Shown: positions 3,640-64,000 of the stretch, piece after piece
How the letters are laid out: every line of letters begins with the position of its first letter
Numbering within the stretch: the first letter of the stretch is position 1
Source: Buxus sempervirens
Taxonomy: Eukaryota; Streptophyta; Magnoliopsida; Buxales; Buxaceae
Reading direction: 5' to 3'
Assembly: GCA_947561395.2 (NCBI GenBank)
Contig: OX387185.1
Location: forward strand, 34,638,213-34,702,212
Length of the DNA stretch: 64,000 bases
Notes under the pieces: generated by a model
Seen by the model: the letters and a program-made list of their open reading frames with translations, nothing else
The model's database searches: none
Told to the model about the DNA's origin: nothing
Made by a program: the position numbers and the translations under genes

Positions 3640-3850
3640 ATTTTCTCAAAAATCCTATTCTTGTTTTGAAATCCACCTCACAGCCACGAGAGCTCTGTGG
3701 AATTTAGGACAACTTTGGGAAGTGTGCCTGGTCAAAAGGATGATATCCACTCAATTTTCAACTTGGTTTGATAAAAAATCAGTTTTTCAAAAAATCCCAT
3801 TTTTGGGCTTAAAATCCACTTCACAACCACAAAGGGCTCAGTGGAATTTA
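3640..3850 (+). repeat. Diverged tandem duplication before the polypurine tract
   Basis: About 65 bp around 3640-3705 recurs at about 3785-3850. Shared landmarks are TCAAAAA(A)TCC, AAATCCACYTCACARCCAC and GTGGAATTTA. Non-coding. Confidence 0.6.
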
Positions 3851-42062: not shown

Positions 42063-42160
42063 TAAGAGGAAAATAAACTTGTTTTAACTATCAATGATGA
42101 ACGTGCACGTTGTGAATGAAAGAATATTATTCTCATAGTTTGTGATTTTAATTTCTTCCG

Positions 42161-43621: not shown

Positions 43622-44417
43622 TGTAAGCACCTTATTTTTGCACCCCTGGAAGTGCTGAAAATGAAAACCCTAGCAGAAAGTCAAACCCTAAGGGGAGAAA
43701 TGTTGACTTTCTGATCAAGTAATAATTGACCACCTTGCTCTATCTCAATGGATAGAGAATCCCGACACGATTCCAACGCAACTGAGTTTGCTGGAATCGG
43801 GGTCCGGATAAAGGTTCTGCAGACCGGTCAAACTTGAGGGGGAGCCAAAAGTTGACTTTCTGCTAAACCCCGATCCAGGTGCTTACCCCCATGCCATTGG
43901 ATATAGGGCTTCGATACGGTTCTAACGCAATTGAGTTTGCCCAGATCGGAGCCCGGATGAAGAAAATATGAGCTGTCAAAGTTTCCAAGCAGCAAAACCG
44001 GCAAACTGCACACGTGGCAGAGAGCTGCACGCGTGGCAAGTGGCGCAGAAAAATATCTCGGGGATCAAATCCGTAAATATCCAAACATCCCAAATTTCTC
44101 AAGGACTAAATCTGTAGAAATCCAAGAGTATTGGATTAAATCAAAAATGCCCAGGGACTAAATCTTAAATTTCAGATTTTTCGGACAAATCCGCAGCCGA
44201 ATTAATTATCTTTAATCATTGTGTCTCGCTCGCGCGAGCAAGCGAGCGCAAAACGCGCTCGACGCCAGCCCGGCGGATACCCCATTTTTCTCCTATAAAT
44301 ACAGCAGCCTCGTTCTTGTTCAAGGTTCGGCTTTTTTTTCCTAGGGGCTTCATGCTAGTTGGCTTTTTCCTTGTTGGGGGCTTTCTCTAGTGTTGGTTCT
44401 TCCCATGGAGAACTCGT
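43622..44417 (+). repeat. 5' part of an LTR from a second Tat-like family, interrupted by the element at 44418
   Basis: Starts TGTAAGCACCTTATTTTTGC, diverged from but alignable to the LTR at 44418 (TGTTAGCACCTGATTTTTGC). Both share GACACGRTTCCAACGCAACT and GCTGGAATCGG blocks. TATAAATA lies at 44294-44301. The rest of this LTR is displaced beyond the nested element and outside the window. Confidence 0.8.
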
Positions 44418-44976
44418 TGTTAGCACCTGATTTTTGCACCCCCAAAATAAAGAAAAGTGAAAAGTCAAACTAAAAGTCAAACCCTGAGGGGGTCAAAAAT
44501 TGACTTTTTGATTCAAGTAAATTTGGCCATCAAACTTCATATCATTGGAAAAAGCAGTTCGACACGGTTCCAACGCAACTGAATTTGCTGGAATCGGAGT
44601 CCGGATGAGAAAGATATGAGCTGGTCAAACTTTTGGAGGGCGAAAAGTTGACTTTTTGCTCGACCCTAATTCGACTGCCAAACTTGATCCCAATGGATAG
44701 GTGGTTCCGAGCTGATTCCAACGACACTAAGTTTGTTGAAATCGGACACCGGACGAAGAAGTTATGAGCAGTTGAAGTTTCAGAAAAACTGCCCATGTGG
44801 CAAAAAGGCAGCAAAAATAGACTAAACCAATAAAATAAATAAGATAAAAGTGTTTAATAATATTTTAATAAAGAGAATCTCGTTTTCTAATAAAATAATC
44901 GGAAAAATCGGATAAAAATCCTGCAATAAGCCAAATTGAATAAAGGTTTGAAATCCACACATTTTTAAAACGTGCG

Positions 44977-45193
44977 GGACCGTATTTACATTACGGGCAG
45001 GGCATGCCCGTATTTTAAATACGGGCACGCTTCTAGAAGGAAGACACGCGTCGCCGTACGGCGGAACACGCGTCCCGTACGGCCGAATCTGCGATAATTG
45101 CAAATATTCGTTTTTCGCCCGTATTTGAATTACGGGCAAGGCACGCCCGTACTTGAAGTACGGGCAAGGCACGCCCGTAGATCAAATACGGGC
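44977..45193. repeat. U3 palindrome cluster (GCCCGTA...TACGGGC), LTR 1
   Basis: Four 21-bp inverted repeats lie at 45006, 45117, 45145 and 45173, plus an imperfect one at about 44977; the last three are spaced exactly 28 bp. Outer arms are GCCCGTA/TACGGGC. Two have perfect 10-bp arms with different inner bases (GCCCGTATTT and GCCCGTACTT with matching partners). Between them lie GCCGTACGGC and CCCGTACGGCCG. The TATA box follows 15 bp after the last one. The copy in LTR 2 is at 56491-56707. Confidence 0.9.
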
Positions 45194-45207
45194 ACGGGAT
45201 TTTTGCC

Positions 45208-45215
45208 TATAAATA
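45208..45215 (+). promoter_or_regulatory. TATA box of LTR 1
   Basis: GCCTATAAATAGAG context, immediately downstream of the palindrome cluster. Confidence 0.75.
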
Positions 45216-46866
45216 GAGAGGCCTCCCCTCTTCATTTGAACAAGCCATCCTCCTTTGGCCTACCCCCTCTCCCTCTTGGTGCTTACTACGACCAAATGCT
45301 GTTCAATTACCACCACCCTATCCAAGCCCATTTAATGCCCAAAATACCCTTGTAACCCCAAAACCATGCCTAATCCTCCCAAAGCATCTTCTTAAAACCC
45401 AACCTCCTATCAAGGCTCTTTTAAAACCAATCTGGAAAATCCAAAGAGACGCGGAAGCGCTGCCGAGATTACCAGAGAACCATCACTTGTCAAAGAATTG
45501 AGAAGGTAATAGTAAAAGGGAAGTTATCTTATTCAATACATGTCAATATTTTGAGTTTAAATTGTCTCTTATTTTATTTACTGTTTCTCTCATCCATTGG
45601 CTTCTAACGTGTGCAATATTAAGCATGGTATGCTGAAGATGAAGATCCAATTAAAAGAAGGAGAAAGGGAGTTTGGATATGACAAATAAAAGTCATCTAA
45701 GACAAGATGGCTTCACTTCATATCAGATCACCTTTTCATACACTCCCTATCTTCTTGATCAATGATAAATATGTGTTTGCAAGCCTAGCCATATGATAAA
45801 GAACCTCTGATTCCTTCATGTGTTCTCATGCAAAAGATGATCATATGAAAGATAAAAAAAAAAGGGGAGAAGTAAAGAACAAGAAAATGATGAAGAAGTG
45901 AGTTCTTATGTTGCTGTGAAGATATTGTAAACCTCGGCGGATGCCACTGGATCCCTTAAAAGGCAGCCGGAACAGATCCAGAATGAAATCGGCAGCAAAT
46001 GGGCAAACGGAGTTGTGCCCGTAAACTCAGGCCGGTCCAGGCTGGACCGTGATTGCTTCACGGGCAGAAGGGACCGGAATCCATTCACGGTCAGGCTGGA
46101 CCGTAGAGCAAACACGGGCGAAATGTGAAATAATGTAAAATTTGTCATTTCTTGGTTCGGTTGGATCTGATCCGGTCTAAGCCGGCTTGAACCATCCTTT
46201 TAAAACATTTGGGCTACCTTAAGCCCATTTTTGACTTTGGGCCTAGATAGGCCCACCAAGATTCCCTTGGGCCCACTTGTGGGGCCCACTTCTGACCAGC
46301 CCAAACCCGGCCCGTTTTCAATAAAACGGGCCCAGGCCACTAGACTTTGGCTAATGGGCCCATTCCAAGCCCACTAAGCCCAAACTAAAATTGTAAATAT
46401 ATAAAACTTAATAAAATAACCAAATGGGTTACCCAATAACCCAACTGGGCCCAAGGCCCAACCATGGCAACCCACGGGTCTTCCAACGGGACCCGGGTCT
46501 GACCCACTTCACTTAAATAAATAAAAAGATAAAATCAACTAAAAAGGGACCCACACCTCCAGCGGGCCCCGCCAGACCTAACAAGGTAGCATGCTAGTCT
46601 AGGAAGGGTGAACTTGACTCAAAAACCAGGGAGACCCGAGGGACCCGTCAAACCGACGGGGCGGACCAGGGTGTCTTTAGGACTTCCCCGGACCGTAACC
46701 GAGGACTTAGCTAGAACTCTGAAAGGCCGCAGACCAGACTTAGACCCGATTAGGGCAAAACCGTGTCTGCCTGCACTCTCAGGCAGTGGCGACTCTGAAA
46801 ATCCCGAGGCACGTGCCAAAGGCGCGCCCGGTGTGCGATCTAGGCCAGGTTTAGGTGCGCACAGCT

Positions 46867-46884
46867 TGGCGACTCTGCTGGGGA
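46867..46884 (+). promoter_or_regulatory. Primer binding site, unit 1
   Basis: TGGCGACTCTGCTGGGGA, starting with TGG (complement of tRNA CCA) three bases after the LTR end. It resembles the tRNA-Arg type sites reported for Tat/Ogre elements; the tRNA identity is inferred. Confidence 0.8.
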
Positions 46885-48967
46885 CTCCCTCAACCCAGTC
46901 GGACCCTGGTTATCAAATGAGTCAACTTAGGAGGATATAGGCTAATTTAGGAAGTACTTTTTGTCCAACCTTAGTAAGGTATGGAACTCATGTAATTACA
47001 TGATATTGGGGGATCCTGTCAAACGGACATGATAATCGCCTAAGGCAAGTGGTTTTTAACAGGGACCAATGTGACCCGCCCACTTACCTGGGGATCCACC
47101 CAGATCTTGTATTACATGCTGTTCTGCACTTTTACTATAAATGTAGGAACCCTTTGTTGGCCCTTATTCGAGAATCACCCAAGCAGACACAGCACTTGAC
47201 CCCATTGCACATACAAGCACCTCACTACACCGTGAATGAATTTTTTAACTGCGTGGGGTGACATGCACGAGGGAGTCTGCATGGATGATCCGAACTGAAT
47301 GCTATCTGCACTCTGTGAATGTTCTTCTTAACCAAAACCTAGATCTCTCTAGCAGCCACCCTTCTTCAATCGAGAAACTTACTTTGGGATGGTATTAGCC
47401 CTACGCTCCCGTGGCTTGCCGGGGAAAGCAGGGTAAACCCATCTCCCCAGGTTTCTGGATTCTTCAAGCGCCCTTGGTTTCTTGCCATGGTACGCGAGGG
47501 GTCTAGTACTTGGCTCAGACCCTTGAAGGCAGGTGCCTCGGGCTGGGTATCCTTCCCCACCTATTGACTCTGAAAAACCTCGATCTGAATCTGAATGTGA
47601 ACATGAATGCTGGAATAAAATAAGGAAAAATCAATTTAAAACCCAAGAGTCCATCAGGGGCAACAACCCCGTCCTTTTGCATCGAACTGAGTGAGACCTA
47701 GACCATGGGTTGCCTTAGCCCTAAATTAGGAAACCAACCCAATTTGATCAGGGGTCTAACCCCAGATCCATGCATTTGAGTCCTGTAAACCGTGGGCCTC
47801 GACCCATTAAGTCCGCTGGAAGCACTCTAAGTCTTAGTTGGCCTTTCAAGCAGATGAAAGCCAGCCAGATCAGACAATCAGACAGAAACAGGCCAAAACA
47901 GGGGCAGAAAAAAAACCCTAGATTTAGGATTTCAGCCCACCTGCCAAGAAGCAAACTTGTACCCTCCTTTTGGGTTCCCAACAACCCTAAAGGTGATTTT
48001 CTTTACAGAATTATTTTTGTAAATTTCGCCCTCGATGGCAAGGTGTAAACATTTTTATTGTGATCTGACACCCAAAAGCAGATAAAAGAACAGATGAAAG
48101 ATAAAAGGTTGATCAGGACTTAGGAATGCTTCCTTACACAAGTATGTCTAGGAGTCGTGCCTTAACAGGCACCAACCCTTTTAGGACCATGCACACACCT
48201 GTTGGTTTTTTTTAGCATTTAACTTTCATTTTACCTGTGTATATATTTGTTCTTGCGTTAAACATGTGCACTTCGAGATCATTTACACCAACCTGTTTAG
48301 CCGCATTGTATTCAAAAATGCACAAAAATTTTCTGGGCATTCATTGAGCCGGCTTTCGAGGTGTTCATCAAAATGGCCTTCGGGCCTACATTGAATCGTC
48401 TCCATTAACATTGTCTTTTGCTATGCACAGTAAAACCGTCATTCATGGTTATATTGAGCTAGCTGTGTAGACATAAATCAAATCGCCCCTCTTGCGGCAT
48501 AAATTCTCCATGCCATTCATGGCATGATCCAAGGCACGTTTCCTGATTTACCATTTCTTGATTTCAAAGGGTTTGCACTCATGAAGCACGTGTTGCACGG
48601 TTTTGAAAACCATCAAACACGATATGATCTCCAGAGTCTCAATCTCTGAAAGATCGAACTGCAAGTTTTTTTTTTTAACATCGTAATTTTCAGGAAAAAC
48701 CCTTGATTGGATATGGCACTGTCACACACTGTTCACAGTAATGTTTTGTCGAAGTTGTGATTTTCATGCATGAATCGTCCCATATTTATTTTCACTTATT
48801 GTGACCCCAGAGCACCACTCACGGTGTAAATGATCTCGTCATACACAACACATTGTTCATAAGTTGAAAAGAAACTGATTGAGATCTTTAATGAACAGGT
48901 ACGATTCAGGTACTTCACATTAAAAGCACTAACCAGAACGCTGCATTTGCATTGAAAAAGGACTGCA
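46885..48967 (+). other. Untranslated leader between primer binding site and Gag, unit 1
   Basis: About 2.1 kb with only short frames on both strands, identical in unit 2 (58399-60481). No extra protein is recognised. Confidence 0.6.
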
Positions 48968-50308
48968 ATGAATTCTTCTGAGGCTCCAACTTCGTCATCC
49001 TCACAACCAAGAACTGAAGAACAGCAAGTCATGATGGATCTAAGTCAACAAGTAGCCATGACACATGCCACGGGGGTTCAAGTACCAGAAATCCAACAGG
49101 GACAACCACCCCAGCCGAACCTCATGACAGTTGATCTGCCACCACGGGACACCCAATTCCCACATCCGGCAGCAATAGCCACCCACCTTCCACCATGTGT
49201 GCCTGTCCAATTGGGGCAAGAAGAGCAAGACCGGAACAGGGTACGGAAGGCCCAACTTGAGGAAATGTTGGCTGCAGTAAAGGAAGACAGTAAGGCCCAA
49301 ATAGCCGCAATAAGAGAAGAACTCTTGAAACAACTCCAGCCCAACCCAGTACGTGAGGAAACCACACTGGAGAGCTTGTGTCTTTTCCCAGACATCCATC
49401 TGCCAGTAAAGTTCCGATGTCCTGACTTGCATAAGTTTGACGGTACTGGCTGTCCTTTGATACACCTGCGATCCTATGTTGGCGACATGTGCCAATATGC
49501 GAAGGACGAAAAGATCATGGTTCAGTTCTTCCAGAGATCGCTAACTGGGGCAGCATATTCTTGGTTCCTAAGTCTGGACAAGCAGAAGGTCAAGACATGG
49601 AACGACATTGCTACTGTATTCATCCAACAGTACCATTTGAACAGTCCGACGGTTCAAACCCGGGCAGAATTACAAAGACTATCAAAGGGAAATAGCGAGT
49701 TTGTAAGAGACTACGCTAAAAGATGGATAAAACTAGCAAATATGGTTCAACCCCCTCTCCTAGAACAAGAACAAACTTCTCTGTTCATTTCATCATTGGG
49801 GCAACCATACTTTACAATGCTGTTGGGACAATGTGCTGCAAGTTTCGCCGAGCTGGTGATGACGGCTGAAAGGATCGAAGATGCGGTTAAGGCTGGGAAA
49901 ATAGGAGCTTCTATGACAGAATCCTCCCAAGAAGACATAAGATATGAGGGAACGATCAACCATGACCAATCTGCTAAACGCAAGAGAGGAAATGATCACC
50001 CCTGTGCAAATGTCACCATGGCTCGACTGAAGGAGCCCTTGACTAAGGAAGAAAGAAAGAACCGTGTGTTCACACAGCTCCCATATTCCCTGGCTGAGTT
50101 GTTGCCTACCTTGCTGCAAGAAGGACACCTGAAGCAGGTTCCCCCAAATCCAAGGGCACCAGCAAGTAGAGGGTATGACCCGTCCAAGACATGTGGTTAC
50201 CATAAGGGAGCACCGGGGCATGATACTAACGAATGTTGGAGCCTCCGTCATGCAGTCCAAGATCTCCTTGAAGCTGGGGAACTCAAAATTGATCCTCCAT
50301 CAAGTTGA
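48968..50308 (+). CDS. gag: Gag polyprotein of the Tat-type element, unit 1 (446 aa)
   Basis: The Gln/Pro-rich N-terminus is followed by a predicted coiled coil (about residues 85-122, QLEEMLAAVKEDSKAQIAAI). The capsid-like Retrotrans_gag region spans about 135-305, with KFDGTGCPLIHLRSYVGDM, FFQRSLTGAAYSWFLSLD, TWNDIATVFIQQY, FVRDYAKRW and FAELVMTAERIEDAV. This matches Tat/Ogre Gag. The C-terminal module starts at RVFTQLPYSLAELLPTLL and ends in a C-x2-H-x5-H-x4-C knuckle (C409, H412, H418, C423), then WSLRHAVQDLLEAG. It would bind and package element RNA. It ends in a stop and is not fused to protease. The start is the first Met after the leader; the frame is intact. Confidence 0.9.
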   Translation: MNSSEAPTSSSSQPRTEEQQVMMDLSQQVAMTHATGVQVPEIQQGQPPQPNLMTVDLPPRDTQFPHPAAIATHLPPCVPVQLGQEEQDRNRVRKAQLEEMLAAVKEDSKAQIAAIREELLKQLQPNPVREETTLESLCLFPDIHLPVKFRCPDLHKFDGTGCPLIHLRSYVGDMCQYAKDEKIMVQFFQRSLTGAAYSWFLSLDKQKVKTWNDIATVFIQQYHLNSPTVQTRAELQRLSKGNSEFVRDYAKRWIKLANMVQPPLLEQEQTSLFISSLGQPYFTMLLGQCAASFAELVMTAERIEDAVKAGKIGASMTESSQEDIRYEGTINHDQSAKRKRGNDHPCANVTMARLKEPLTKEERKNRVFTQLPYSLAELLPTLLQEGHLKQVPPNPRAPASRGYDPSKTCGYHKGAPGHDTNECWSLRHAVQDLLEAGELKIDPPSS

Positions 50309-50454
50309 AAAGAAATTGAGAAAAAAAAAATAATAAAAAAAAAATAAAAAAAAATAAAAAAAAAAAAAAAGATCATCTCTATGCAGCCTAGCATTTCATG
50401 GATTCTGCTTTCTGATGTTTGTTTCTTCTGGCAGGAACCCCTTCAGTAGTCAGC

Positions 50455-51177
50455 ATGGACCACACCTCAGAGACAAGTCGTGATGCGGCCCAACAAATAT
50501 CCAGCATAGTGGCCTCTCTATGGAGTCTGCTAAGAATGATAACAATCAGGGAAGAAACATGGAACAAATGCTGGGAAGCATTAGGAGAAGAAAATTTTGA
50601 ACTACGATCTCAAGTAAGGGTCCTTGAAGAAGAAATCCAACAAATAAAGGGAAAGATACCCCTGAACTGTCAAGAAGTGAGCTGCCCGCCAACCATAATA
50701 GGTAGTCAGATGCAAAAAGAGAAAGGAAAAGCTGTAGCAGAGGGTGTTACTCGAGCCATGAAAAAGCAAAATCCTTTGGATGATTCCCCAAGGAGAACAA
50801 AAGAGGAAGCAGAGGCCAGAATGAGGAGGGTTTTCACCCCTTTACCATATGCACCGATAGAATTGCTTCCAACACTATTGAAGGAGGGGTATGTGCAGAT
50901 TAAGCCCCCGAACCCCCGAATGATTCGGTCCAGAAACTACAACGCTGCAGAACGATGTGAGTACCATTCTGATGCTCCAGGACACCACACAAACCGGTGT
51001 TGGGATCTGCGGCATGATATTCAAGATCTGATCGATCAAGGATTCTTGAAGGAATTGCTTGAGAAACCAGGGTCTTACATTTCTGACAAGTTGGCACAGG
51101 TCCGAATATCTGAATCAACCATCTTCCCGCAGAAAAGAGGAGATGATGCAGAAAAGGAGAATGAGGAAAGCACCTAA
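50455..51177 (+). CDS. Second Gag-like ORF with a duplicated zinc-knuckle module, unit 1 (240 aa)
   Basis: The likely start is MDHTSETSRDAAQQ at 50455 (the frame is open from 50419). It has a helical N-terminus with a predicted coiled coil (ENFELRSQVRVLEEEIQQIK), then a module parallel to the end of Gag: RVFTPLPYAPIELLPTLLKE, NPRMIRSRNY, then C-x2-H-x5-H-x4-C (CEYH...GH...C) and WDLRHDIQDLIDQGF. It lacks the capsid-like region. A poly-A stretch (50319-50370) and the acceptor-like TTTCTTCTGGCAG at about 50423-50435 separate it from Gag, so it may be translated from a spliced RNA. Possible roles are RNA binding or modulation of Gag assembly. The second copy is at 61969-62691. Confidence 0.7.
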   Translation: MDHTSETSRDAAQQISSIVASLWSLLRMITIREETWNKCWEALGEENFELRSQVRVLEEEIQQIKGKIPLNCQEVSCPPTIIGSQMQKEKGKAVAEGVTRAMKKQNPLDDSPRRTKEEAEARMRRVFTPLPYAPIELLPTLLKEGYVQIKPPNPRMIRSRNYNAAERCEYHSDAPGHHTNRCWDLRHDIQDLIDQGFLKELLEKPGSYISDKLAQVRISESTIFPQKRGDDAEKENEEST

Positions 51178-51316
51178 AAGCTTCCTGCCACGACAGGCAA
51201 CTGAATTCCAAGAATGCTGATTCGTATCAGCCACCTTTTGCATAAATTACTACTTACTTTTGTTTATGCTTTCTTTTAATTTCCGAACTTGATAACATGC
51301 TTCTTTTTGCAAGCTT

Positions 51317-51550
51317 ATGAAATCTTTTGGGAAATCACCAGAGTGTTTTACTACACCAAGGCAAGATTGTGATCTCGGGACAAACCTGAACAATCAAAAA
51401 TGGAATGTGCCAGACAGCACAAGCTGTGCGGGTTTCAACATAGCCAAAGGATCCCCCACCTGCACCACATTTGAACCCTACCTTGCCAAACAGTGGAGCA
51501 AGCTGAAAGAAAAAAAAAGGAAGAAGGGGAAAGGTGCCCATACCAGTTAA
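51317..51550 (+). CDS. Small unrecognised ORF, unit 1 (77 aa)
   Basis: Starts MKSFGKSPECF and ends with the basic tail KEKKRKKGKGAHTS. It lies about 140 bp after the second ORF, preceded by a pyrimidine-rich CTTCTTTTTGCAAG. It could be the remains of a longer coding region, since a pol gene would start around here in an autonomous element. No family is recognised. Confidence 0.3.
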   Translation: MKSFGKSPECFTTPRQDCDLGTNLNNQKWNVPDSTSCAGFNIAKGSPTCTTFEPYLAKQWSKLKEKKRKKGKGAHTS

Positions 51551-53058
51551 GGGTCACTGACATGATCCAGGATCAATGATCCCAATGACATGATGAGAGG
51601 CCATTTTTGGCTGAAATACTTCAAGCAAATTCCGCTAGTCAGACATGATTAAGCTTGATCGTCTCGTTTCTAACCCATGTTATGTCTAGCCACCCCAAAT
51701 TGGGGCAAAGTCAAAAAAAAATAAATAAATAAAGATGAAAATGGTTCTTGAGCCAGTTAATTGTACAAAAACAAGTGTTACATTCTCTGTAAAAGGATGA
51801 AAGGCCATCCTTGATTTTCTCCCAAAAATCATCTGACACAAGATGAAACCCTAGCAAAACACTTTGGGCCGAACAATCTCTTCATTTAACCCTACCATGT
51901 CCTGTCTTCAAAACTAGGGTACACAAGCTTCATGAAATTGGAGACACAAGAAAGACAAGGGGAAGATAGGGCAAAGTGAAAAGCACCCTAAAAAAGGAGA
52001 AAAGGGATAAAACCCAGAAAACAAGAATTTGAAGAACTGGGGCAATTCCCTTTGAAAAAAGAAAAGAAGAAAAAGAAAGAAAAAACAAGAGAAAAACAAG
52101 AGTTGGGGCAAGTCCCAAAAGCAAAAGTCAAGGATTGGGGCAAAGAACCCAAGAAAGGAAAGAAAAGAAAAGAACAAAGATGAAAAAAAAAGGTAAAGAA
52201 GCTACACAAAGCTGAAGGGGTAAAAGATGAAGAAAGCCCTAACCAAGAAAAGTGGACAGGACATGGCTCTTACCCTACTCACAAATTTTGAGCCTTTATA
52301 TCATTTCTTCTGGACCCATGAACCAAGCCTACATTTCGTCCTGTTATGAAGTCCTTTCTGATTACAGAGAATTTGACACTAACTCCCAGACAAACTGGCA
52401 ATGACAGAATCAAAGGAACAAAAGAACTTTGGCTAGACATAATGGTCACCCATAGAATGAAGTTATATAGGATTTGAGCTTATTTATCCTTCATTTCTAA
52501 AACACTGGAAACAAAGCCTACATTTCGTCCTACTAATAAGTCCTCTTTGATCATTGGATCGTGATCCATGGAAATTGACAGGACCCTTAGACTGGAGCAA
52601 TGCACCAAACCCGAATAAGGGAACCAAGTGAGAGAAAAACTAAGGGTGGGAAAAAGAAAAAAAGAGAGAGAGAGAGAGAAAATTAAAAGATCTGGGGAAA
52701 GGCAGTGCCAAAGAAACCCCCTGAACCAAAAACAATTCCCCTCATTCCAACTTGGGGCATGCCATTGGAGGCAAAAATGTTGAGACCTTTACAGGGAATG
52801 CTGAGAAGCATCATTTCATAAAGTCTAAATGAGAGTGTCAGGTGACTGACCCAAAGATTATTGGTCTTGTCATGGACCCACTTTGAAAAGCGGAAATTCC
52901 AAACATTGGTGAATTCCCAAAAGGTTTTAATTGCTTATGTTTTGCACGTAATTTTGATTAACTAAATTTTACTTGAACTTTTGCAGGTACTGACAAAGCT
53001 TGAAACAGACAGATAAGGCCATTACGGCAGATTCACACTGATACAGGAAAAATTGCCT
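51551..53058 (+). other. Non-coding purine-rich internal region where pol would be expected
   Basis: No RT, RNase H or integrase motif in any frame. TTGGGGCAA-type motifs recur (about 51698, 52105, 52136, 52752). A block CCTACATTTCGTCCT followed by AAGTCCT recurs near 52329 and 52518. A/G-rich tracts lie at 52060-52200 and 52640-52690. The equivalent part of unit 2 runs to the window end. Confidence 0.7.
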
Positions 53059-54447
53059 CCATGTATTCACACATGGGGCGCAGAAAAAGCCATCACGATG
53101 TATTCACACGTTGGATGCCATCACAGCGTATTCACACGTTGGATGTAAAAGCAAAATCCGTCACCATGTATTCACACATGGGGCGCAGAAAAGTCATCAC
53201 GATGTATCCACACATTGGATGCCATCACAGCGTATTCACACGTTGGATGCCAAAACAAAATCCGTCACCATGTATTCACACATGGGGCGCAGAAAAAGCC
53301 ATCACGATGTATTCACACATTGGATGCCATCACCATATACTCACACATGGGATGTAAAATGAGTCGTCACCATGTATTCACACATGGGGCGAAAGCAGAA
53401 TCGGCACCATGTATTCACACATGGAACGCAGAAAAGCCGTTCCGGCGTATTCACACGCTGATGAAAAAACAAAACCGTCACAGTGTATTCACACATTGGA
53501 CAAAGAAGAAACTAGAATCAAAACCACTGACGGATAAGTCAGAAATTGGTGAGGGAATGTCCCAACATAATTTGTGATATCAAAGCTGTTGATACATGAA
53601 TTTGAAAAAAAAAAAAAAAAAAGAGGATTGAAAGAAAGAAAAAGAAGAAGAAGAAGAAAAGAAAAATGGATTGAGAAAAGAAAGAAAAGAAAAAAGAAGG
53701 AGAGAAAAAGATTGAGAAAGAAAAGAAATGGACAAAGACAAAAGAAACAAAATGTCTCCTAAAGACAAGAGCCACCATGTATTCTCACATGGGGCACCTC
53801 AGAGGAAGTCACCATGTATTCACACATGGGACGCAAAAAGAGTCATCACAATGTATCCACACATTGGTTGACAAAAGTTTGTGAAGCCACCGACAAATAA
53901 GTCAGCTTCGAATATCATTAAGACAAAAAAGGGACAGAGACAAAAGTCACCATGTATTCACACATGGGACGCAAAAAGAGTCATCACAATGTATCCACAC
54001 ATTGGTTGACAAAAGTTTGTGAAGCCACCGACAAATAAGTCAGCTTCGAATATCATTAATATAAAAAAAAAAAAAAAAAAGACAGAGAAATTCGTCACCG
54101 TGTATCCACACATGGGACGCAAAAAGAGTCATCACAATGTATCCACACATTGGTTGACAAAAGTTTGTGAAGCCACCAACAAATAAGTCAGCTTCGAATC
54201 AAGACAAAAACACAGACAAAATTCGTCGCCATGTATTCACACATGGGACGCAGAAAGAGTCATCACAATGTATCCACACATTGGTTGACAAAAGTTTGAA
54301 AAGCCACCGACAAATAAGTCAGCTTTGAATCAAGACAAAAAGACAGAGAAAGAGTCACCATGTATTCTCACATGGGACACAGACAAAATTCGTCACCGTG
54401 TATCCACACATGGGACGCAAAAAGAGTCATAATGTATTCACACATTA
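53059..54447 (+). repeat. Array of about 25 covarying hairpins, loop TAT[TC]CACA
   Basis: Each unit is a 5-bp stem closing an 8-nt loop. Stems include CCATG/CATGG, CAATG/CATTG, CGATG/CGTTG, CAGCG/CGTTG, CAGTG/CATTG, CCGTG/CATGG, CGGCG/CGCTG and TAATG/CATTA. Units are often 37 bp apart (for example 53059, 53096; 53370, 53407; 53813, 53850). Higher-order units add GACAAATAAGTCAGCTTCGAA after pairs of hairpins between 53870 and 54330. Long frames across the array follow the repeat and are not taken as coding. Confidence 0.9.
53590..53740 (+). repeat. Purine-rich GA tract interrupting the hairpin array
   Basis: About 150 bp of AAAGAAGA-type sequence between hairpins at 53480 and 53776. The Lys/Arg frame on it is an artefact. 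Confidence 0.85.
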
Positions 54448-54600
54448 ATTGACCGAAGTTTGTTGTGGTACCGACGCCGCCAGTGATTAAACTGAAGGTT
54501 GGCTGAGGCACACCTGGGTGTTGTTTTTCAACTCACCCCCTGTGGAGACTTTACATGGTCCAACCCTGAGATACTAAGTTCAAACCAACCAGTTAACTTT

Positions 54601-54922
54601 GGGTTCTCTCTCCCAGCCGTTTGGCTAAAATAGACCAGTTTAAACCGGGTTCCCTTTCCCAGCCGTTTGGCTAAAATAGACCTGTTTAACCGTGGGTTCA
54701 CTTTCCCAGCCGTTTGGCTAAAATAGACCAGTTTAAACCGGGTTCTCTTTCCCAGCCGTTTGGCTAAAATAGACCAGTTAACCGTGGATTCCCTTTCCCA
54801 GCCGTTTGGCTAAAATAGATCAGGTCCAGGGTTCTCTTCCCCAATCATTCCAAATGATTAAAATAGATCAATTTGTCTTTGGGTTCTCTTCCCCAACTGT
54901 TTTAGGACAGTTAAAATAGATC
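54601..54922 (+). repeat. Seven tandem units: hairpin followed by AAAATAGA
   Basis: Units of about 45-55 bp have the form TTC(C/T)CTTTCCC, hairpin, AAAATAGAYC. Five carry AGCC-GTTT-GGCT. The sixth has AATCATT-CCA-AATGATT (54843-54859) and the seventh AACTGT-TTTAGG-ACAGTT (54895-54912). Sequence changes in the stem keep the pairing. Confidence 0.85.
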
Positions 54923-54954
54923 TATAATCAGGTACCAAAATAGCTTTTCGAAGT

Positions 54955-55012
54955 CCGTACCTGTTAAAATCCTGAAAAGGCACCCGTACCTGTTAAAATC
55001 CTGAAAAGGCAC
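54955..55012 (+). repeat. 29-bp perfect tandem duplication
   Basis: CCGTACCTGTTAAAATCCTG... occurs twice back to back (54955-54983, 54984-55012). Confidence 0.95.
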
Positions 55013-55918
55013 AAGCCCCCATGGGAGTACCACTACTCAAGCTCTTCAGAAGAACCCCACGAAGTTGCAAGATTACATCAATCCCCAGAAGATCAAGCAC
55101 TAATGTTTTGTTCCTTGTGCAGGTACAAAGAAGGAAGAAAAATGCAAAAATGAATATGAGAAGGATACTTTGATCCTTCATTCCCCAGCAGAGGCTTCCT
55201 CCTTTTCATCCCCAGCAGAGTTCAGAAGAAAGAAGATCGTCAAGATCCTCAAACCCTCCAACAAAACTTCAAGAGCAAAGAGAGACATCACAATAATCCC
55301 CAGAGAGTCATTTAGACAGATCATACTCCCACCATATCCCAAGCGGAGTAACTCTTGAATGGGAAAGAAGCTCTAAATGCCTCGACAAGAGAAAGAACCT
55401 GGCAAGGAGAAGCAACAAGGAAGAGCAGTAATGGGCCAATTCGCCCCTTCTTGTAAATTTTGATTCCCACTTTTGTAAATAGCATAGGCTAGAGTAGATG
55501 TGTGTGGTCTCCGAGATGATGGACAGCAGCGCGGAAGCTTCCTCCCGTCCTCCCACCTGCACTCCCAAACCCATACCCTGGTCTACTTAAAAAAAAAAAA
55601 AAAAAAAAAAACTGAAGTCACTAAAAGCTTTAAAGGAACAAACAAAAAGAAAAGAACATTGTTAAGTGCCTTGCATCAACGTCGAAACAGGCTGATGAGC
55701 TCAAAATTTAATCTTTCTCAAAAAACTAAGGAACAACCCTATTCAAACCCGAAAAAGGGTATAGGGATTCCCAAAATCAGGAAGTGATACCAAACATCTG
55801 ACGCTTCCCTTTTAAACAATTCAGTGATTGAGCTCATCGACCATGTCGACAGAAATGCAAGGTGCAAAAATAAGGTTCTTTTTCTTCTTTGCCGTTCATC
55901 CCCTAAGGTGACTCCAGC

Positions 55919-55931
55919 AAAGAGGGGCAGC
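55919..55931 (+). promoter_or_regulatory. Polypurine tract between unit 1 and LTR 2
   Basis: AAAGAGGGGCAGC directly before TGTTAGCACC, nearly identical to the tract at 4013-4025. Confidence 0.8.
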
Positions 55932-56490
55932 TGTTAGCACCTGATTTTTGCACCCCCAAAATAAAGAAAAGTGAAAAGTCAAACTAAAAGTCAAACCCTG
56001 AGGGGGTCAAAAATTGACTTTTTGATTCAAGTAAATTTGGCCATCAAACTTCATATCATTGGAAAAAGCAGTTCGACACGGTTCCAACGCAACTGAATTT
56101 GCTGGAATCGGAGTCCGGATGAGAAAGATATGAGCTGGTCAAACTTTTGGAGGGCGAAAAGTTGACTTTTTGCTCGACCCTAATTCGACTGCCAAACTTG
56201 ATCCCAATGGATAGGTGGTTCCGAGCTGATTCCAACGACACTAAGTTTGTTGAAATCGGACACCGGACGAAGAAGTTATGAGCAGTTGAAGTTTCAGAAA
56301 AACTGCCCATGTGGCAAAAAGGCAGCAAAAATAGACTAAACCAATAAAATAAATAAGATAAAAGTGTTTAATAATATTTTAATAAAGAGAATCTCGTTTT
56401 CTAATAAAATAATCGGAAAAATCGGATAAAAATCCTGCAATAAGCCAAATTGAATAAAGGTTTGAAATCCACACATTTTTAAAACGTGCG

Positions 56491-56707
56491 GGACCGTATT
56501 TACATTACGGGCAGGGCATGCCCGTATTTTAAATACGGGCACGCTTCTAGAAGGAAGACACGCGTCGCCGTACGGCGGAACACGCGTCCCGTACGGCCGA
56601 ATCTGCGATAATTGCAAATATTCGTTTTTCGCCCGTATTTGAATTACGGGCAAGGCACGCCCGTACTTGAAGTACGGGCAAGGCACGCCCGTAGATCAAA
56701 TACGGGC
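56491..56707. repeat. U3 palindrome cluster, LTR 2
   Basis: Identical copy of the cluster at 44977-45193, offset 11,514 bp. Confidence 0.9.
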
Positions 56708-56721
56708 ACGGGATTTTTGCC

Positions 56722-56729
56722 TATAAATA
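56722..56729 (+). promoter_or_regulatory. TATA box of LTR 2
   Basis: Same context as 45208-45215. Confidence 0.75.
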
Positions 56730-58380
56730 GAGAGGCCTCCCCCCTTCATTTGAACAAGCCATCCTCCTTTGGCCTACCCCCTCTCCCTCTTGGTGCTTAC
56801 TACGACCAAATGCTGTTCAATTACCACCACCCTATCCAAGCCCATTTAATGCCCAAAATACCCTTGTAACCCCAAAACCATGCCTAATCCTCCCAAAGCA
56901 TCTTCTTAAAACCCAACCTCCTATCAAGGCTCTTTTAAAACCAATCTGGAAAATCCAAAGAGACGCGGAAGCGCTGCCGAGATTACCAGAGAACCATCAC
57001 TTGTCAAAGAATTGAGAAGGTAATAGTAAAAGGGAAGTTATCTTATTCAATACATGTCAATATTTTGAGTTTAAATTGTCTCTTATTTTATTTACTGTTT
57101 CTCTCATCCATTGGCTTCTAACGTGTGCAATATTAAGCATGGTATGTTGAAGATGAAGATCCAATTAAAAGAAGGAGAAAGGGAGTTTGGATATGACAAA
57201 TAAAAGTCATCTAAGACAAGATGGCTTCACTTCATATCAGATCACCTTTTCATACACTCCCTATCTTCTTGATCAATGATAAATATGTGTTTGCAAGCCT
57301 AGCCATATGATAAAGAACCTCTGATTCCTTCATGTGTTCTCATGCAAAAGATGATCATATGAAAGATAAAAAAAAAAGGGGAGAAGTAAAGAACAAGAAA
57401 ATGATGAAGAAGTGAGTTCTTATGTTGCTGTGAAGATATTGTAAACCTCGGCGGATGCCACTGGATCCCTTAAAAGGCAGCCGGAACAGATCCAGAATGA
57501 AATCGGCAGCAAATGGGCAAACGGAGTTGTGCCCGTAAACTCAGGCCGGTCCAGGCTGGACCGTGATTGCTTCACGGGCAGAAGGGACCGGAATCCATTC
57601 ACGGTCAGGCTGGACCGTAGAGCAAACACGGGCGAAATGTGAAATAATGTAAAATTTGTCATTTCTTGGTTCGGTTGGATCTGATCCGGTCTAAGCCGGC
57701 TTGAACCATCCTTTTAAAACATTTGGGCTACCTTAAGCCCATTTTTGACTTTGGGCCTAGATAGGCCCACCAAGATTCCCTTGGGCCCACTTGTGGGGCC
57801 CACTTCTGACCAGCCCAAACCCGGCCCGTTTTCAATAAAACGGGCCCAGGCCACTAGACTTTGGCTAATGGGCCCATTCCAAGCCCACTAAGCCCAAACT
57901 AAAATTGTAAATATATAAAACTTAATAAAATAACCAAATGGGTTACCCAATAACCCAACTGGGCCCAAGGCCCAACCATGGCAACCCACGGGTCTTCCAA
58001 CGGGACCCGGGTCTGACCCACTTCACTTAAATAAATAAAAAGATAAAATCAACTAAAAAGGGACCCACACCTCCAGCGGGCCCCGCCAGACCTAACAAGG
58101 TAGCATGCTAGTCTAGGAAGGGTGAACTTGACTCAAAAACCAGGGAGACCCGAGGGACCCGTCAAACCGACGGGGCGGACCAGGGTGTCTTTAGGACTTC
58201 CCCGGACCGTAACCGAGGACTTAGCTAGAACTCTGAAAGGCCGCAGACCAGACTTAGACCCGATTAGGGCAAAACCGTGTCTGCCTGCACTCTCAGGCAG
58301 TGGCGACTCTGAAAATCCCGAGGCACGTGCCAAAGGCGCGCCCGGTGTGCGATCTAGGCCAGGTTTAGGTGCGCACAGCT

Positions 58381-58398
58381 TGGCGACTCTGCTGGGGA
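58381..58398 (+). promoter_or_regulatory. Primer binding site, unit 2
   Basis: Same sequence and spacing as at 46867-46884. Confidence 0.8.
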
Positions 58399-60481
58399 CT
58401 CCCTCAACCCAGTCGGACCCTGGTTATCAAATGAGTCAACTTAGGAGGATATAGGCTAATTTAGGAAGTACTTTTTGTCCAACCTTAGTAAGGTATGGAA
58501 CTCATGTAATTACATGATATTGGGGGATCCTGTCAAACGGACATGATAATCGCCTAAGGCAAGTGGTTTTTAACAGGGACCAATGTGACCCGCCCACTTA
58601 CCTGGGGATCCACCCAGATCTTGTATTACATGCTGTTCTGCACTTTTACTATAAATGTAGGAACCCTTTGTTGGCCCTTATTCGAGAATCACCCAAGCAG
58701 ACACAGCACTTGACCCCATTGCACATACAAGCACCTCACTACACCGTGAATGAATTTTTTAACTGCGTGGGGTGACATGCACGAGGGAGTCTGCATGGAT
58801 GATCCGAACTGAATGCTATCTGCACTCTGTGAATGTTCTTCTTAACCAAAACCTAGATCTCTCTAGCAGCCACCCTTCTTCAATCGAGAAACTTACTTTG
58901 GGATGGTATTAGCCCTACGCTCCCGTGGCTTGCCGGGGAAAGCAGGGTAAACCCATCTCCCCAGGTTTCTGGATTCTTCAAGCGCCCTTGGTTTCTTGCC
59001 ATGGTACGCGAGGGGTCTAGTACTTGGCTCAGACCCTTGAAGGCAGGTGCCTCGGGCTGGGTATCCTTCCCCACCTATTGACTCTGAAAAACCTCGATCT
59101 GAATCTGAATGTGAACATGAATGCTGGAATAAAATAAGGAAAAATCAATTTAAAACCCAAGAGTCCATCAGGGGCAACAACCCCGTCCTTTTGCATCGAA
59201 CTGAGTGAGACCTAGACCATGGGTTGCCTTAGCCCTAAATTAGGAAACCAACCCAATTTGATCAGGGGTCTAACCCCAGATCCATGCATTTGAGTCCTGT
59301 AAACCGTGGGCCTCGACCCATTAAGTCCGCTGGAAGCACTCTAAGTCTTAGTTGGCCTTTCAAGCAGATGAAAGCCAGCCAGATCAGACAATCAGACAGA
59401 AACAGGCCAAAACAGGGGCAGAAAAAAAACCCTAGATTTAGGATTTCAGCCCACCTGCCAAGAAGCAAACTTGTACCCTCCTTTTGGGTTCCCAACAACC
59501 CTAAAGGTGATTTTCTTTACAGAATTATTTTTGTAAATTTCGCCCTCGATGGCAAGGTGTAAACATTTTTATTGTGATCTGACACCCAAAAGCAGATAAA
59601 AGAACAGATGAAAGATAAAAGGTTGATCAGGACTTAGGAATGCTTCCTTACACAAGTATGTCTAGGAGTCGTGCCTTAACAGGCACCAACCCTTTTAGGA
59701 CCATGCACACACCTGTTGGTTTTTTTTAGCATTTAACTTTCATTTTACCTGTGTATATATTTGTTCTTGCGTTAAACATGTGCACTTCGAGATCATTTAC
59801 ACCAACCTGTTTAGCCGCATTGTATTCAAAAATGCACAAAAATTTTCTGGGCATTCATTGAGCCGGCTTTCGAGGTGTTCATCAAAATGGCCTTCGGGCC
59901 TACATTGAATCGTCTCCATTAACATTGTCTTTTGCTATGCACAGTAAAACCGTCATTCATGGTTATATTGAGCTAGCTGTGTAGACATAAATCAAATCGC
60001 CCCTCTTGCGGCATAAATTCTCCATGCCATTCATGGCATGATCCAAGGCACGTTTCCTGATTTACCATTTCTTGATTTCAAAGGGTTTGCACTCATGAAG
60101 CACGTGTTGCACGGTTTTGAAAACCATCAAACACGATATGATCTCCAGAGTCTCAATCTCTGAAAGATCGAACTGCAAGTTTTTTTTTTTAACATCGTAA
60201 TTTTCAGGAAAAACCCTTGATTGGATATGGCACTGTCACACACTGTTCACAGTAATGTTTTGTCGAAGTTGTGATTTTCATGCATGAATCGTCCCATATT
60301 TATTTTCACTTATTGTGACCCCAGAGCACCACTCACGGTGTAAATGATCTCGTCATACACAACACATTGTTCATAAGTTGAAAAGAAACTGATTGAGATC
60401 TTTAATGAACAGGTACGATTCAGGTACTTCACATTAAAAGCACTAACCAGAACGCTGCATTTGCATTGAAAAAGGACTGCA

Positions 60482-61822
60482 ATGAATTCTTCTGAGGCTC
60501 CAACTTCGTCATCCTCACAACCAAGAACTGAAGAACAGCAAGTCATGATGGATCTAAGTCAACAAGTAGCCATGACACATGCCACGGGGGTTCAAGTACC
60601 AGAAATCCAACAGGGACAACCACCCCAGCCGAACCTCATGACAGTTGATCTGCCACCACGGGACACCCAATTCCCACATCCGGCAGCAATAGCCACCCAC
60701 CTTCCACCATGTGTGCCTGTCCAATTGGGGCAAGAAGAGCAAGACCGGAACAGGGTACGGAAGGCCCAACTTGAGGAAATGTTGGCTGCAGTAAAGGAAG
60801 ACAGTAAGGCCCAAATAGCCGCAATAAGAGAAGAACTCTTGAAACAACTCCAGCCCAACCCAGTACGTGAGGAAACCACACTGGAGAGCTTGTGTCTTTT
60901 CCCAGACATCCATCTGCCAGTAAAGTTCCGATGTCCTGACTTGCATAAGTTTGACGGTACTGGCTGTCCTTTGATACACCTGCGATCCTATGTTGGCGAC
61001 ATGTGCCAATATGCGAAGGACGAAAAGATCATGGTTCAGTTCTTCCAGAGATCGCTAACTGGGGCAGCATATTCTTGGTTCCTAAGTCTGGACAAGCAGA
61101 AGGTCAAGACATGGAACGACATTGCTACTGTATTCATCCAACAGTACCATTTGAACAGTCCGACGGTTCAAACCCGGGCAGAATTACAAAGACTATCAAA
61201 GGGAAATAGCGAGTTTGTAAGAGACTACGCTAAAAGATGGATAAAACTAGCAAATATGGTTCAACCCCCTCTCCTAGAACAAGAACAAACTTCTCTGTTC
61301 ATTTCATCATTGGGGCAACCATACTTTACAATGCTGTTGGGACAATGTGCTGCAAGTTTCGCCGAGCTGGTGATGACGGCTGAAAGGATCGAAGATGCGG
61401 TTAAGGCTGGGAAAATAGGAGCTTCTATGACAGAATCCTCCCAAGAAGACATAAGATATGAGGGAACGATCAACCATGACCAATCTGCTAAACGCAAGAG
61501 AGGAAATGATCACCCCTGTGCAAATGTCACCATGGCTCGACTGAAGGAGCCCTTGACTAAGGAAGAAAGAAAGAACCGTGTGTTCACACAGCTCCCATAT
61601 TCCCTGGCTGAGTTGTTGCCTACCTTGCTGCAAGAAGGACACCTGAAGCAGGTTCCCCCAAATCCAAGGGCACCAGCAAGTAGAGGGTATGACCCGTCCA
61701 AGACATGTGGTTACCATAAGGGAGCACCGGGGCATGATACTAACGAATGTTGGAGCCTCCGTCATGCAGTCCAAGATCTCCTTGAAGCTGGGGAACTCAA
61801 AATTGATCCTCCATCAAGTTGA
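60482..61822 (+). CDS. gag: Gag polyprotein, unit 2 (446 aa)
   Basis: Amino-acid sequence identical to the Gag at 48968-50308, with the same capsid-like region and C409/H412/H418/C423 knuckle. The perfect identity points to very recent duplication or to an assembly duplication. Confidence 0.9.
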   Translation: MNSSEAPTSSSSQPRTEEQQVMMDLSQQVAMTHATGVQVPEIQQGQPPQPNLMTVDLPPRDTQFPHPAAIATHLPPCVPVQLGQEEQDRNRVRKAQLEEMLAAVKEDSKAQIAAIREELLKQLQPNPVREETTLESLCLFPDIHLPVKFRCPDLHKFDGTGCPLIHLRSYVGDMCQYAKDEKIMVQFFQRSLTGAAYSWFLSLDKQKVKTWNDIATVFIQQYHLNSPTVQTRAELQRLSKGNSEFVRDYAKRWIKLANMVQPPLLEQEQTSLFISSLGQPYFTMLLGQCAASFAELVMTAERIEDAVKAGKIGASMTESSQEDIRYEGTINHDQSAKRKRGNDHPCANVTMARLKEPLTKEERKNRVFTQLPYSLAELLPTLLQEGHLKQVPPNPRAPASRGYDPSKTCGYHKGAPGHDTNECWSLRHAVQDLLEAGELKIDPPSS

Positions 61823-61968
61823 AAAGAAATTGAGAAAAAAAAATAATAAAAAAAAAATAAAAAAAAAATAAAAAAAAAAAAAAAGATCATCTCTATGCAG
61901 CCTAGCATTTCATGGATTCTGCTTTCTGATGTTTGTTTCTTCTGGCAGGAACCCCTTCAGTAGTCAGC

Positions 61969-62691
61969 ATGGACCACACCTCAGAGACAAGTCGTGATGC
62001 GGCCCAACAAATATCCAGCATAGTGGCCTCTCTATGGAGTCTGCTAAGAATGATAACAATCAGGGAAGAAACATGGAACAAATGCTGGGAAGCATTAGGA
62101 GAAGAAAATTTTGAACTACGATCTCAAGTAAGGGTCCTTGAAGAAGAAATCCAACAAATAAAGGGAAAGATACCCCTGAACTGTCAAGAAGTGAGCTGCC
62201 CGCCAACCATAATAGGTAGTCAGATGCAAAAAGAGAAAGGAAAAGCTGTAGCAGAGGGTGTTACTCGAGCCATGAAAAAGCAAAATCCTTTGGATGATTC
62301 CCCAAGGAGAACAAAAGAGGAAGCAGAGGCCAGAATGAGGAGGGTTTTCACCCCTTTACCATATGCACCGATAGAATTGCTTCCAACACTATTGAAGGAG
62401 GGGTATGTGCAGATTAAGCCCCCGAACCCCCGAATGATTCGGTCCAGAAACTACAACGCTGCAGAACGATGTGAGTACCATTCTGATGCTCCAGGACACC
62501 ACACAAACCGGTGTTGGGATCTGCGGCATGATATTCAAGATCTGATCGATCAAGGATTCTTGAAGGAATTGCTTGAGAAACCAGGGTCTTACATTTCTGA
62601 CAAGTTGGCACAGGTCCGAATATCTGAATCAACCATCTTCCCGCAGAAAAGAGGAGATGATGCAGAAAAGGAGAATGAGGAAAGCACCTAA
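61969..62691 (+). CDS. Second Gag-like ORF, unit 2 (240 aa)
   Basis: Identical protein to 50455-51177, in the same position behind the unit 2 Gag. Confidence 0.7.
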   Translation: MDHTSETSRDAAQQISSIVASLWSLLRMITIREETWNKCWEALGEENFELRSQVRVLEEEIQQIKGKIPLNCQEVSCPPTIIGSQMQKEKGKAVAEGVTRAMKKQNPLDDSPRRTKEEAEARMRRVFTPLPYAPIELLPTLLKEGYVQIKPPNPRMIRSRNYNAAERCEYHSDAPGHHTNRCWDLRHDIQDLIDQGFLKELLEKPGSYISDKLAQVRISESTIFPQKRGDDAEKENEEST

Positions 62692-62830
62692 AAGCTTCCT
62701 GCCACGACAGGCAACTGAATTCCAAGAATGCTGATTCGTATCAGCCACCTTTTGCATAAATTACTACTTACTTTTGTTTATGCTTTCTTTTAATTTCCGA
62801 ACTTGATAACATGCTTCTTTTTGCAAGCTT

Positions 62831-63064
62831 ATGAAATCTTTTGGGAAATCACCAGAGTGTTTTACTACACCAAGGCAAGATTGTGATCTCGGGACAAACC
62901 TGAACAATCAAAAATGGAATGTGCCAGACAGCACAAGCTGTGCGGGTTTCAACATAGCCAAAGGATCCCCCACCTGCACCACATTTGAACCCTACCTTGC
63001 CAAACAGTGGAGCAAGCTGAAAGAAAAAAAAAGGAAGAAGGGGAAAGGTGCCCATACCAGTTAA
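62831..63064 (+). CDS. Small unrecognised ORF, unit 2 (77 aa)
   Basis: Identical to 51317-51550. Confidence 0.3.
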   Translation: MKSFGKSPECFTTPRQDCDLGTNLNNQKWNVPDSTSCAGFNIAKGSPTCTTFEPYLAKQWSKLKEKKRKKGKGAHTS

Positions 63065-64000
63065 GGGTCACTGACATGATCCAGGATCAATGATCCCAAT
63101 GACATGATGAGAGGCCATTTTTGGCTGAAATACTTCAAGCAAATTCCGCTAGTCAGACATGATTAAGCTTGATCGTCTCGTTTCTAACCCATGTTATGTC
63201 TAGCCACCCCAAATTGGGGCAAAGTAAAAAAAAAAATAAATAAATAAAGATGAAAATGGTTCTTGAGCCAGTTAATTGTACAAAAACAAGTGTTACATTC
63301 TCTGTAAAAGGATGAAAGGCCATCCTTGATTTTCTCCCAAAAATCATCTGACACAAGATGAAACCCTAGCAAAACACTTTGGGCCGAACAATCTCTTCAT
63401 TTAACCCTACCATGTCCTGTCTTCAAAACTAGGGTACACAAGCTTCATGAAATTGGAGACACAAGAAAGACAAGGGGAAGATAGGGCAAAGTGAAAAGCA
63501 CCCTAAAAAAGGAGAAAAGGGATAAAACCCAGAAAACAAGAATTTGAAGAACTGGGGCAATTCCCTTTGAAAAAAGAAAAGAAGAAAAAGAAAGAAAAAA
63601 CAAGAGAAAAACAAGAGTTGGGGAAAGTCCCAAAAGCAAAAGTCAAGGATTGGGGCAAAGAACCCAAGAAAGGAAAGAAAAGAAAAGAACAAAGATGAAA
63701 AAAAAAGGTAAAGAAGCTACACAAAGCTGAAGGGGTAAAAGATGAAGAAAGCCCTAACCAAGAAAAGTGGACAGGACATGGCTCTTACCCTACTCACAAA
63801 TTTTGAGCCTTTATATCATTTCTTCTGGACCCATGAACCAAGCCTACATTTCGTCCTGTTATGAAGTCCTTTCTGATTACAGAGAATTTGACACTAACTC
63901 CCAGACAAACTGGCAATGACAGAATCAAAGGAACAAAAGAACTTTGGCTAGACATAATGGTCACCCATAGAATGAAGTTATATAGGATTTGAGCTTATTT

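Follow-up and report, generated by a model that had tools for sequence, protein, structure and literature searches.

Hairpin units with a shared loop in the 3' array of a gag-bearing LTR retrotransposon of Buxus sempervirens, a candidate cis-acting RNA element

The LTR retrotransposons of the Tat lineage in plants (Ogre, Retand and the soybean Gmr9/GmOgre) carry 3' tandem repeats whose function is called unknown in the accessible parts of the papers that describe them (PMC11963269, PMC3305785), and which gave rise to most of the satellites of Lathyrus sativus according to the accessible part of another (PMC7004042). In Retand, as far as the same kind of partial text goes, an antisense ORF with a Transposase_28 domain lies between pol and the 3' LTR in 97% of clusters (PMC11963269). 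The array described here resembles these repeats in its place between the coding part and the 3' LTR, in its variable number of units and in its family-specific sequence, and it shares with the soybean minisatellites the interleaving of unit types (PMC11963269, PMC3305785, PMC7004042, all in part). The accessible text of these three papers gives no count for "hairpin" or "secondary structure", nor does PMC11963269 for "stem-loop", PMC3305785 for "palindrom" and "stem", or PMC7004042 for "palindrom"; the word check also covered PMC6317226, for "hairpin" only. A literature search returned, among the matches listed, no report of Tat-lineage repeats as RNA hairpin arrays, the paper of Macas and colleagues on hypervariable 3' UTRs being known via citations. 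Unlike the Tat-lineage repeats as described, the units of the present array are hairpins with signs of selection on the sense strand.

Among known RNA hairpins, the iron-responsive element combines a 5' bulged C, a short upper helix and a 6-nt loop CAGUGN. The units of the Buxus array also have a 5' bulged base, a short upper helix and a 6-nt loop, but the bulge is an A, the loop is AYYCWC, the units stand in a tandem array and they find no match at gathering score in Rfam 15 (44400-64000 searched). In phage MS2 the coat protein reads an A in a 5' bulge together with an apical loop motif, and the unpaired 5' A, the short conserved loop and the several copies of the motif recall both the MS2 operator and the dispersed packaging signals, to the extent that the source is accessible (PMC6281560). 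MS2, however, has one TR site and degenerate dispersed ones, whereas the units here are similar, tandem and numerous, with a loop other than that of MS2, and the likeness is meant as a works-like comparison only, the present array being known from its sequence. The enod40 stem-loops are likewise plant RNA hairpins related to repeats, some of them in LTR elements, but in the part of the source consulted they are single stem-loops in a host non-coding RNA, whereas the present array lies in the element's own UTR (PMC10578108).

The element and the architecture of its hairpin units

The window, that is, the whole stretch of 64,000 nucleotides analysed, contains an LTR-int-LTR-int-LTR block that runs from 44418 to beyond 64000 (Table 1). 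The LTRs have TG..CA ends and a single 5-bp target-site duplication, CTCGT, lies at both outer sides of the block (the stretch past the third LTR being locus L071), as in LTR retrotransposons; positions 44418-52485 and 55932-64000 are 99.91% identical over 8070 bp, and the arrangement looks like a recent tandem event. The gag ORF matches the Pfam domain Retrotrans_gag (2.2e-10) and pol is absent at the ORF level, as in non-autonomous LTR retrotransposons. A previous reading of the sequence alone (the sequence-only reading) had called the element gag-only; the lack of pol stands at that level, but there is a second ORF besides gag, 85 aa of which are 58% identical to the Gag C-terminus and include the C-H-H-C motif. 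Both frames are open in many copies among the matches listed, and ORF2 and Gag perhaps form a two-protein Gag system without pol. The hairpin array sits between ORF2 and the polypurine tract, an interval with no sense frame longer than 142 aa and with no Pfam match above the cut-off in the 11 frames scanned of 46 frames of at least 50 aa; the antisense scan covered five frames of 92-102 aa in 51178-55931, none of which matches Pfam, and a further antisense frame, of 108 aa, lies at 50900-51226. Tandem repeats between the coding part and the 3' LTR are found in the Tat lineage (Ogre/Retand), although not exclusively there, and the element is not filed as Retand.

Two observations concern the surroundings of the block. 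Its insertion target (43623-44417) belongs to a related LTR family with 8553 first-look candidates in the genome, 40 of them scored, and a blind scan of 1.5 kb beside copies of that neighbouring family (L061-L064, maybe solo or 5' LTRs) found no recurrent loop. Positions 42159-43459 hold a 436-bp tandem repeat in three copies with 96% matches.

Table 1. Features of the retrotransposon block in the window
Feature	Position	Strand	Remarks
Target-site duplication CTCGT, left copy	44413..44417	.	right copy past the window end, in locus L071
First LTR	44418..46863	+	2446 bp, TGTTAG...GCACA; repeated at 55932; end set by the flank of the third LTR
Putative primer-binding site TGGCGACTCTGCTGGGGA	46867..46884	+	proposed from position and 5'-TGG
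Internal region	46864-55931		between first and middle LTR
gag ORF	48956..50308	+	450 aa stop to stop; Retrotrans_gag domain; C-terminal C-H-H-C knuckle-like motif, read by eye
ORF2	50416..51177	+	253 aa stop to stop; carries a copy of the Gag C-terminal module
Hairpin sub-array 1	53059..53498	+	13 units (one mismatched); stems CCATG, CGATG, CAGCG, CGGCG, CAGTG
Example of a full unit	53195..53221	+	CATC - bulged A - CGATGT - ATCCAC - ACATTG - GATG
Hairpin sub-array 2	53775..54447	+	12 units in blocks of ~138 bp
Second tandem array	54601..54823	+	46-bp units with AGCC-GTTT-GGCT inverted repeat
AATCATT-CCA-AATGATT	54843..54859	+	unrelated stem in the slot of the second array (between ..CCC and AAAATAGA)
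AACTGT-TTTAGG-ACAGTT	54895..54912	+	third stem in the slot of the second array
Polypurine tract AAAGAGGGGCAGC	55919..55931	+	
Middle LTR	55932..58377	+	second internal region then follows: tandem LTR-int-LTR-int-LTR

About 25 hairpins had been reported at 53059-54447, and the count holds: 24 units, all on the + strand, differ from GTATYCACAC by no more than one substitution and pair at all five stem positions (Watson-Crick or G.T), while a 25th unit near 53333, with arms CCATA/CATGG and loop TACTCACA, has the single A.C mismatch that had already been seen. The exact loop TATYCACA occurs 24 times on the + strand of the 64 kb (two of these, at 36953 and 37049, outside the array) and never on the - strand. 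Chance does not explain the hairpins: 53040-53520 folds better than its shuffles (see below), and a blind scan of the element for 8-nt loops on at least three different 5-bp stems flagged two loops, with 15 and 7 units; in window positions 1-44400, both strands, it flagged one, in a simple AT-rich repeat. The description of the unit as a constant 8-nt loop on 5-bp stems captured the recurrence of loop and stem, but a better one is given by the minimum-energy fold, with a 4-bp outer helix, a bulged A on the 5' side, a 6-bp inner helix (one U-A pair more than was described) and the 6-nt loop AYYCWC. The outer helix, C(G/A)UC / G(A/G)(C/U)G behind the bulged A, pairs in 69 to 91% of 1321 units, depending on the position, and the bulge is an A in 1161 of them. 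The loop is among the most conserved parts, since four spellings account for 1048 of the 1099 loops located through their stems alone.

Some simpler roles of the unit were considered. A coding function of the array was rejected because the spacing of the units is not in frame (remainders modulo 3 of 1, 0 and 2 in 733, 317 and 229 cases, unlike a coding repeat); the longest sense frame across the array measures 107 to 305 aa among 42 loci. A PUF-type site UGUA was also rejected, the first U being replaced by C in approximately one fifth of the units, and kissing or dimerisation between loops is unlikely, given that the loops are, by eye, neither self-complementary nor complementary to each other.

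The genome searched comprises 676.5 Mb in 247 contigs, in which a DNA search for the array gave at least 104 matches (40 of 552 candidates scored); 62 of the 104 match rows were merged into 40 arrays and all 40 sequences were used. These contain 1261 loop matches at no more than one mismatch, 1134 of them fully paired in the 5-bp stem. A gag search gave 94 hits, two of them the window's own, and at least 34 of the other 92 have one of the 40 scored arrays downstream, 31 of them at 2.5-3.1 kb. No autonomous partner turned up in these array and gag searches. The array is also present in five of eight older relatives (gag identity 80-88%, picked from 58 gag hits without a scored array) within the 4.5 kb fetched for each; in the same 4.5 kb, the other three (L053, L055 and L056) have no array. 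With three near-duplicates of their neighbours excluded (L020, L032 and L043), 42 loci were obtained, with a median of 30 units with a common loop per locus.

Pairing in shared and private changes

If pairing matters to the element, its trace should be sought in the changes that spread. A contrast of the McDonald-Kreitman kind was made between changes found in at least three loci (shared), assumed to have arisen mostly while the lineage was still jumping, and changes found in one locus (private), assumed to be mostly post-insertion and neutral. The tree was built with FastTree from 683 distinct 48-mers representing 1218 units, with parsimony states; the 103 of 1321 units whose loops fall outside the four common spellings were left out of this contrast, as well as of the covariation null and the unit counts. 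All five inner-stem positions are paired in 1118 of the 1218 units, and inner-stem changes from a paired state kept or broke pairing in a ratio of 33:5 when shared and of 65:77 when private (Fisher p=5.7e-6); changes in two loci (13:9) stayed outside the test. With transitions only, the ratios are 33:4 and 65:49 (p=2.9e-4). The tree is a poor one, built from short sequences, and repeats exchange sequence, both of which limit the contrast; a second version dispensed with the tree and sorted the units according to their flanking sequence (23 of 111 flank classes used, covering 1135 of 1321 units). It gave, for single changes by unit position, 18:6 shared and 22:41 private (p=0.0014), and the shared and private classes each have, in addition, four double changes in which pairing is kept. 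The outer helix fails this contrast with the tree (20:16 vs 50:62, p=0.34) and without it (12:12 vs 16:30, p=0.30), 17 of 104 outer pairs are mismatched in their majority state, and a count of stem types that uses neither tree nor position is not significant (p=0.16). At the level of sequence, the analysis shows that the units are real, with 16 to 45 of them in each array, and that inner pairing has been preserved among the changes that spread.

Block duplication is plain in the array, with periods of 104 bp and 138 bp, and one could regard it as an ordinary neutral minisatellite of the 3' UTR, whose palindrome was inherited once and then copied. The arrays of the Tat lineage are hypervariable (PMC7004042) and their function is given as unknown (PMC11963269), at least in the accessible text of both papers, which suits such a view; the presence of several stem types with two-sided changes does not, and the view conflicts with the contrast between shared and private changes, so that we consider it very improbable.

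Template switching between the arms of an inverted repeat is a further way in which stems could stay paired without selection. The published mechanism, as given in the accessible part of its description, yields compensatory stem changes and should also correct the stems of young copies, invert loops and remove G.U pairs (PMC8794818). In its favour, pairing was restored by five of the seven private changes whose starting state was unpaired, an outcome not expected under selection, and on the tree the private class contains three pairing-preserving double changes, as does the shared class. Against it stand the private changes from a paired state, which are unbiased as counted above; the absence of inverted loops in the 42 loci (0 vs 1015 forward); and the majority states at 26 unit positions, where the 130 inner pairs are 123 Watson-Crick, 7 G.U and none mismatched, A.C included. 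Two loop classes were excluded from that count: TATTGACA, whose 8 members are not genuine units, and AATTCACA, with 28 units, a degenerate first unit at the array start whose arms, like CGGCA/CACTG, are mismatched as read here. Moreover, the shared restorations mostly alter the 5' base (GT to AT in 12 cases, at pairs -3/10 and -4/11, and GT to GC in 1, the direction depending on midpoint rooting of the tree), while in the intrastrand model correction goes towards the 5' base, again on the accessible text (PMC8794818). On this balance, template switching seems very improbable as the cause of the pairing.

The strand on which pairing is kept separates an RNA structure from a DNA-level site, whether that site is double-stranded DNA bound as a cruciform or dyad, or single-stranded cDNA folded into a hairpin. 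G.U pairs exist in the sense RNA only, their complement being A.C, and consequently a preference for G.U argues against a DNA dyad. On the tree, new G.U and new A.C pairs number 17:4 among shared changes (p=0.007) and 54:49 among private ones (p=0.69); mutational input is thus close to symmetric, as seen in the private class. Without the tree the figures are 11:6 shared and 20:16 private, with no clear bias. Folding of 53040-53520 gives z -5.8 on the sense strand, with 0 of 100 shuffles as good, and -2.0 on the antisense strand. When base pairs were restricted to a span of 36, with 40 shuffles for each stretch, the local z of sub-array 1 is -9.9 sense vs -2.6 antisense, and four other stretches of the element (gag, LTR and two UTR pieces) range from -1.7 to +1.2. 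Sub-array 2, with its near-perfect dyads, scores equally on both strands (-7.9 and -7.8), and this is what speaks for a DNA site; the sense-strand preference for G.U, the asymmetry of sub-array 1, and the asymmetric loop, which the 24 units present in one orientation, speak against it. The DNA inverted site, which had been offered earlier as one of two objects of selection, is thus disfavoured by strand asymmetry and appears quite unlikely. The other, an RNA structure, gains support from these results and from the older relatives: because of the pairing of shared changes, the G.U preference and the sense folding of sub-array 1, a sense-strand RNA structure was probably maintained while the elements transposed.

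Covariation of the paired columns was first claimed for all the stems, and the part that rises above a phylogenetic null, the yardstick that the sequence-only reading had itself set, is narrower. In an alignment of 120 of the 126 units drawn, chosen without regard to their stems and read with a ten-pair structure, 91.2% of cells are paired, against 82.3% with the 3' letters shuffled and 17-51% (maximum 50.8%) with the arms slid, and 125 cells are changed on both sides against 48.8 in shuffles, both controls ignoring relatedness. No separation from shuffles appears in the number of pairs with a two-sided change (8 of 10, vs 6.9 when shuffled; equalled or exceeded in 108 of 500 shuffles) or in that of pair types (126 of 500), and RNAalifold predicts only four inner pairs on the same alignment. 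For the phylogenetic null, 100 simulations preserved both the tree and the number of changes in each column, and 990 column pairs were ranked. Pair -4/11 comes first, above the maximum of all simulations, and -2/9 second (E=0.61); the outer-helix pair -9/15 takes eighth place (E=6.9), with five column pairs from outside the structure ahead of it. In these sequences, covariation therefore clearly exceeds the phylogenetic background at -4/11 only, and at -2/9 it is suggestive.

Candidate readers of the array

An element without pol should need foreign enzymes, and the array may be related to that need. Each unit would fold in the sense RNA into a bulged hairpin with the loop AYYCWC, in which the letters of the loop and the pairing are kept and the letters of the stem are free. 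A constant loop and bulge, an interchangeable stem and many copies would together make a multivalent binding site for a protein; by analogy, such binding at the array is likely. The reading that we favour, and hold to be reasonably probable, is that the array is a cis-acting RNA element, a multivalent protein site in the 3' UTR of the genomic RNA of this non-autonomous gag-bearing LTR retrotransposon. Less firmly, the protein could be the element's own Gag or the knuckle-bearing product of ORF2, both of which have a knuckle-like motif that could bind RNA, and the array might help an RNA that lacks pol to enter particles whose enzymes come from a helper; packaging through Gag had been raised as a speculation in the sequence-only reading and stays a hypothesis. 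Gag or the ORF2 protein is the leading option as reader, although only a tentative one.

The same RNA element could instead be read by a host protein acting in nuclear export, 3'-end formation, stability or escape from silencing, an alternative that we rank next and find somewhat unlikely. Retroviral packaging signals usually sit in the 5' leader and the array is located in the 3' UTR, two points that would suit a host reader. In addition, about half of the recently active Retand elements have arrays and only some of these elements are non-autonomous, according to the accessible part of the survey (PMC11963269), so that there is no need to link the array to the missing pol. On the other hand, loops that are specific to subfamilies (AYYCWC vs the CAAG type in one sister copy) would better fit a fast-coevolving protein of the element than a conserved protein of the host.

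If the repeats are selected RNA hairpin arrays, as the favoured reading has it, their function would become testable, in the sense of what binds them, and they would provide a way for gag-only parasites to compete for packaging. Tandem MS2 arrays are used in the laboratory, and the present array would be their natural counterpart. The contrast of shared and private changes is applicable to other transposon RNA structures.

Sister and neighbouring arrays

A sister subfamily is represented by dozens of ORF2 hits at 68-75% identity among the matches listed (150 of 8387 candidates scored), and one full copy of its array was read (L069, reverse strand). Behind its ORF2 the window hairpin survives as two relics, of which one has an altered 3' arm but pairs fully (CAGTG/TACTG) and the other is mismatched; they are followed at approximately 2270-3680 of the reversed locus by an unrelated tandem array of possible hairpins with 8-nt loops of the CAAG type on the stems GGAG/CTCC, AGAG/CTCT, AGGG/CCCT and GACA/TGTC, with four pairs on 37 of 56 such octamers. 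This type of array is repeated in the genome (at least 72 match rows, 40 of 2290 candidates scored), and another locus, L070, has a fragment of it together with one imperfect relic of the window hairpin. Shuffled sequences fold as well as the sense strand of the L069 array (local z -1.1; -3.1 for the antisense strand), and the blind constant-loop scan did not flag it. The same place in the element may be refilled with new hairpin arrays, which we put forward as a lead. A wider proposal, doubtful as matters stand, is that RNA hairpin arrays form a general class to which the hypervariable minisatellites in the 3' UTRs of these plant gypsy elements belong, with a loop constant within each family and free stems, the loop serving as a password for the Gag of that family.

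Within the element itself, the second array (54601-54912) is a lead as a hairpin array; its fold z is -1.9 on the sense and -3.6 on the antisense strand (-1.0 and -2.5 for the local fold). Its slot holds three unrelated inverted repeats, AGCC/GGCT, AATCATT/AATGATT and AACTGT/ACAGTT, whose commonest spellings are found in 37, 20 and 28 of the 42 loci.
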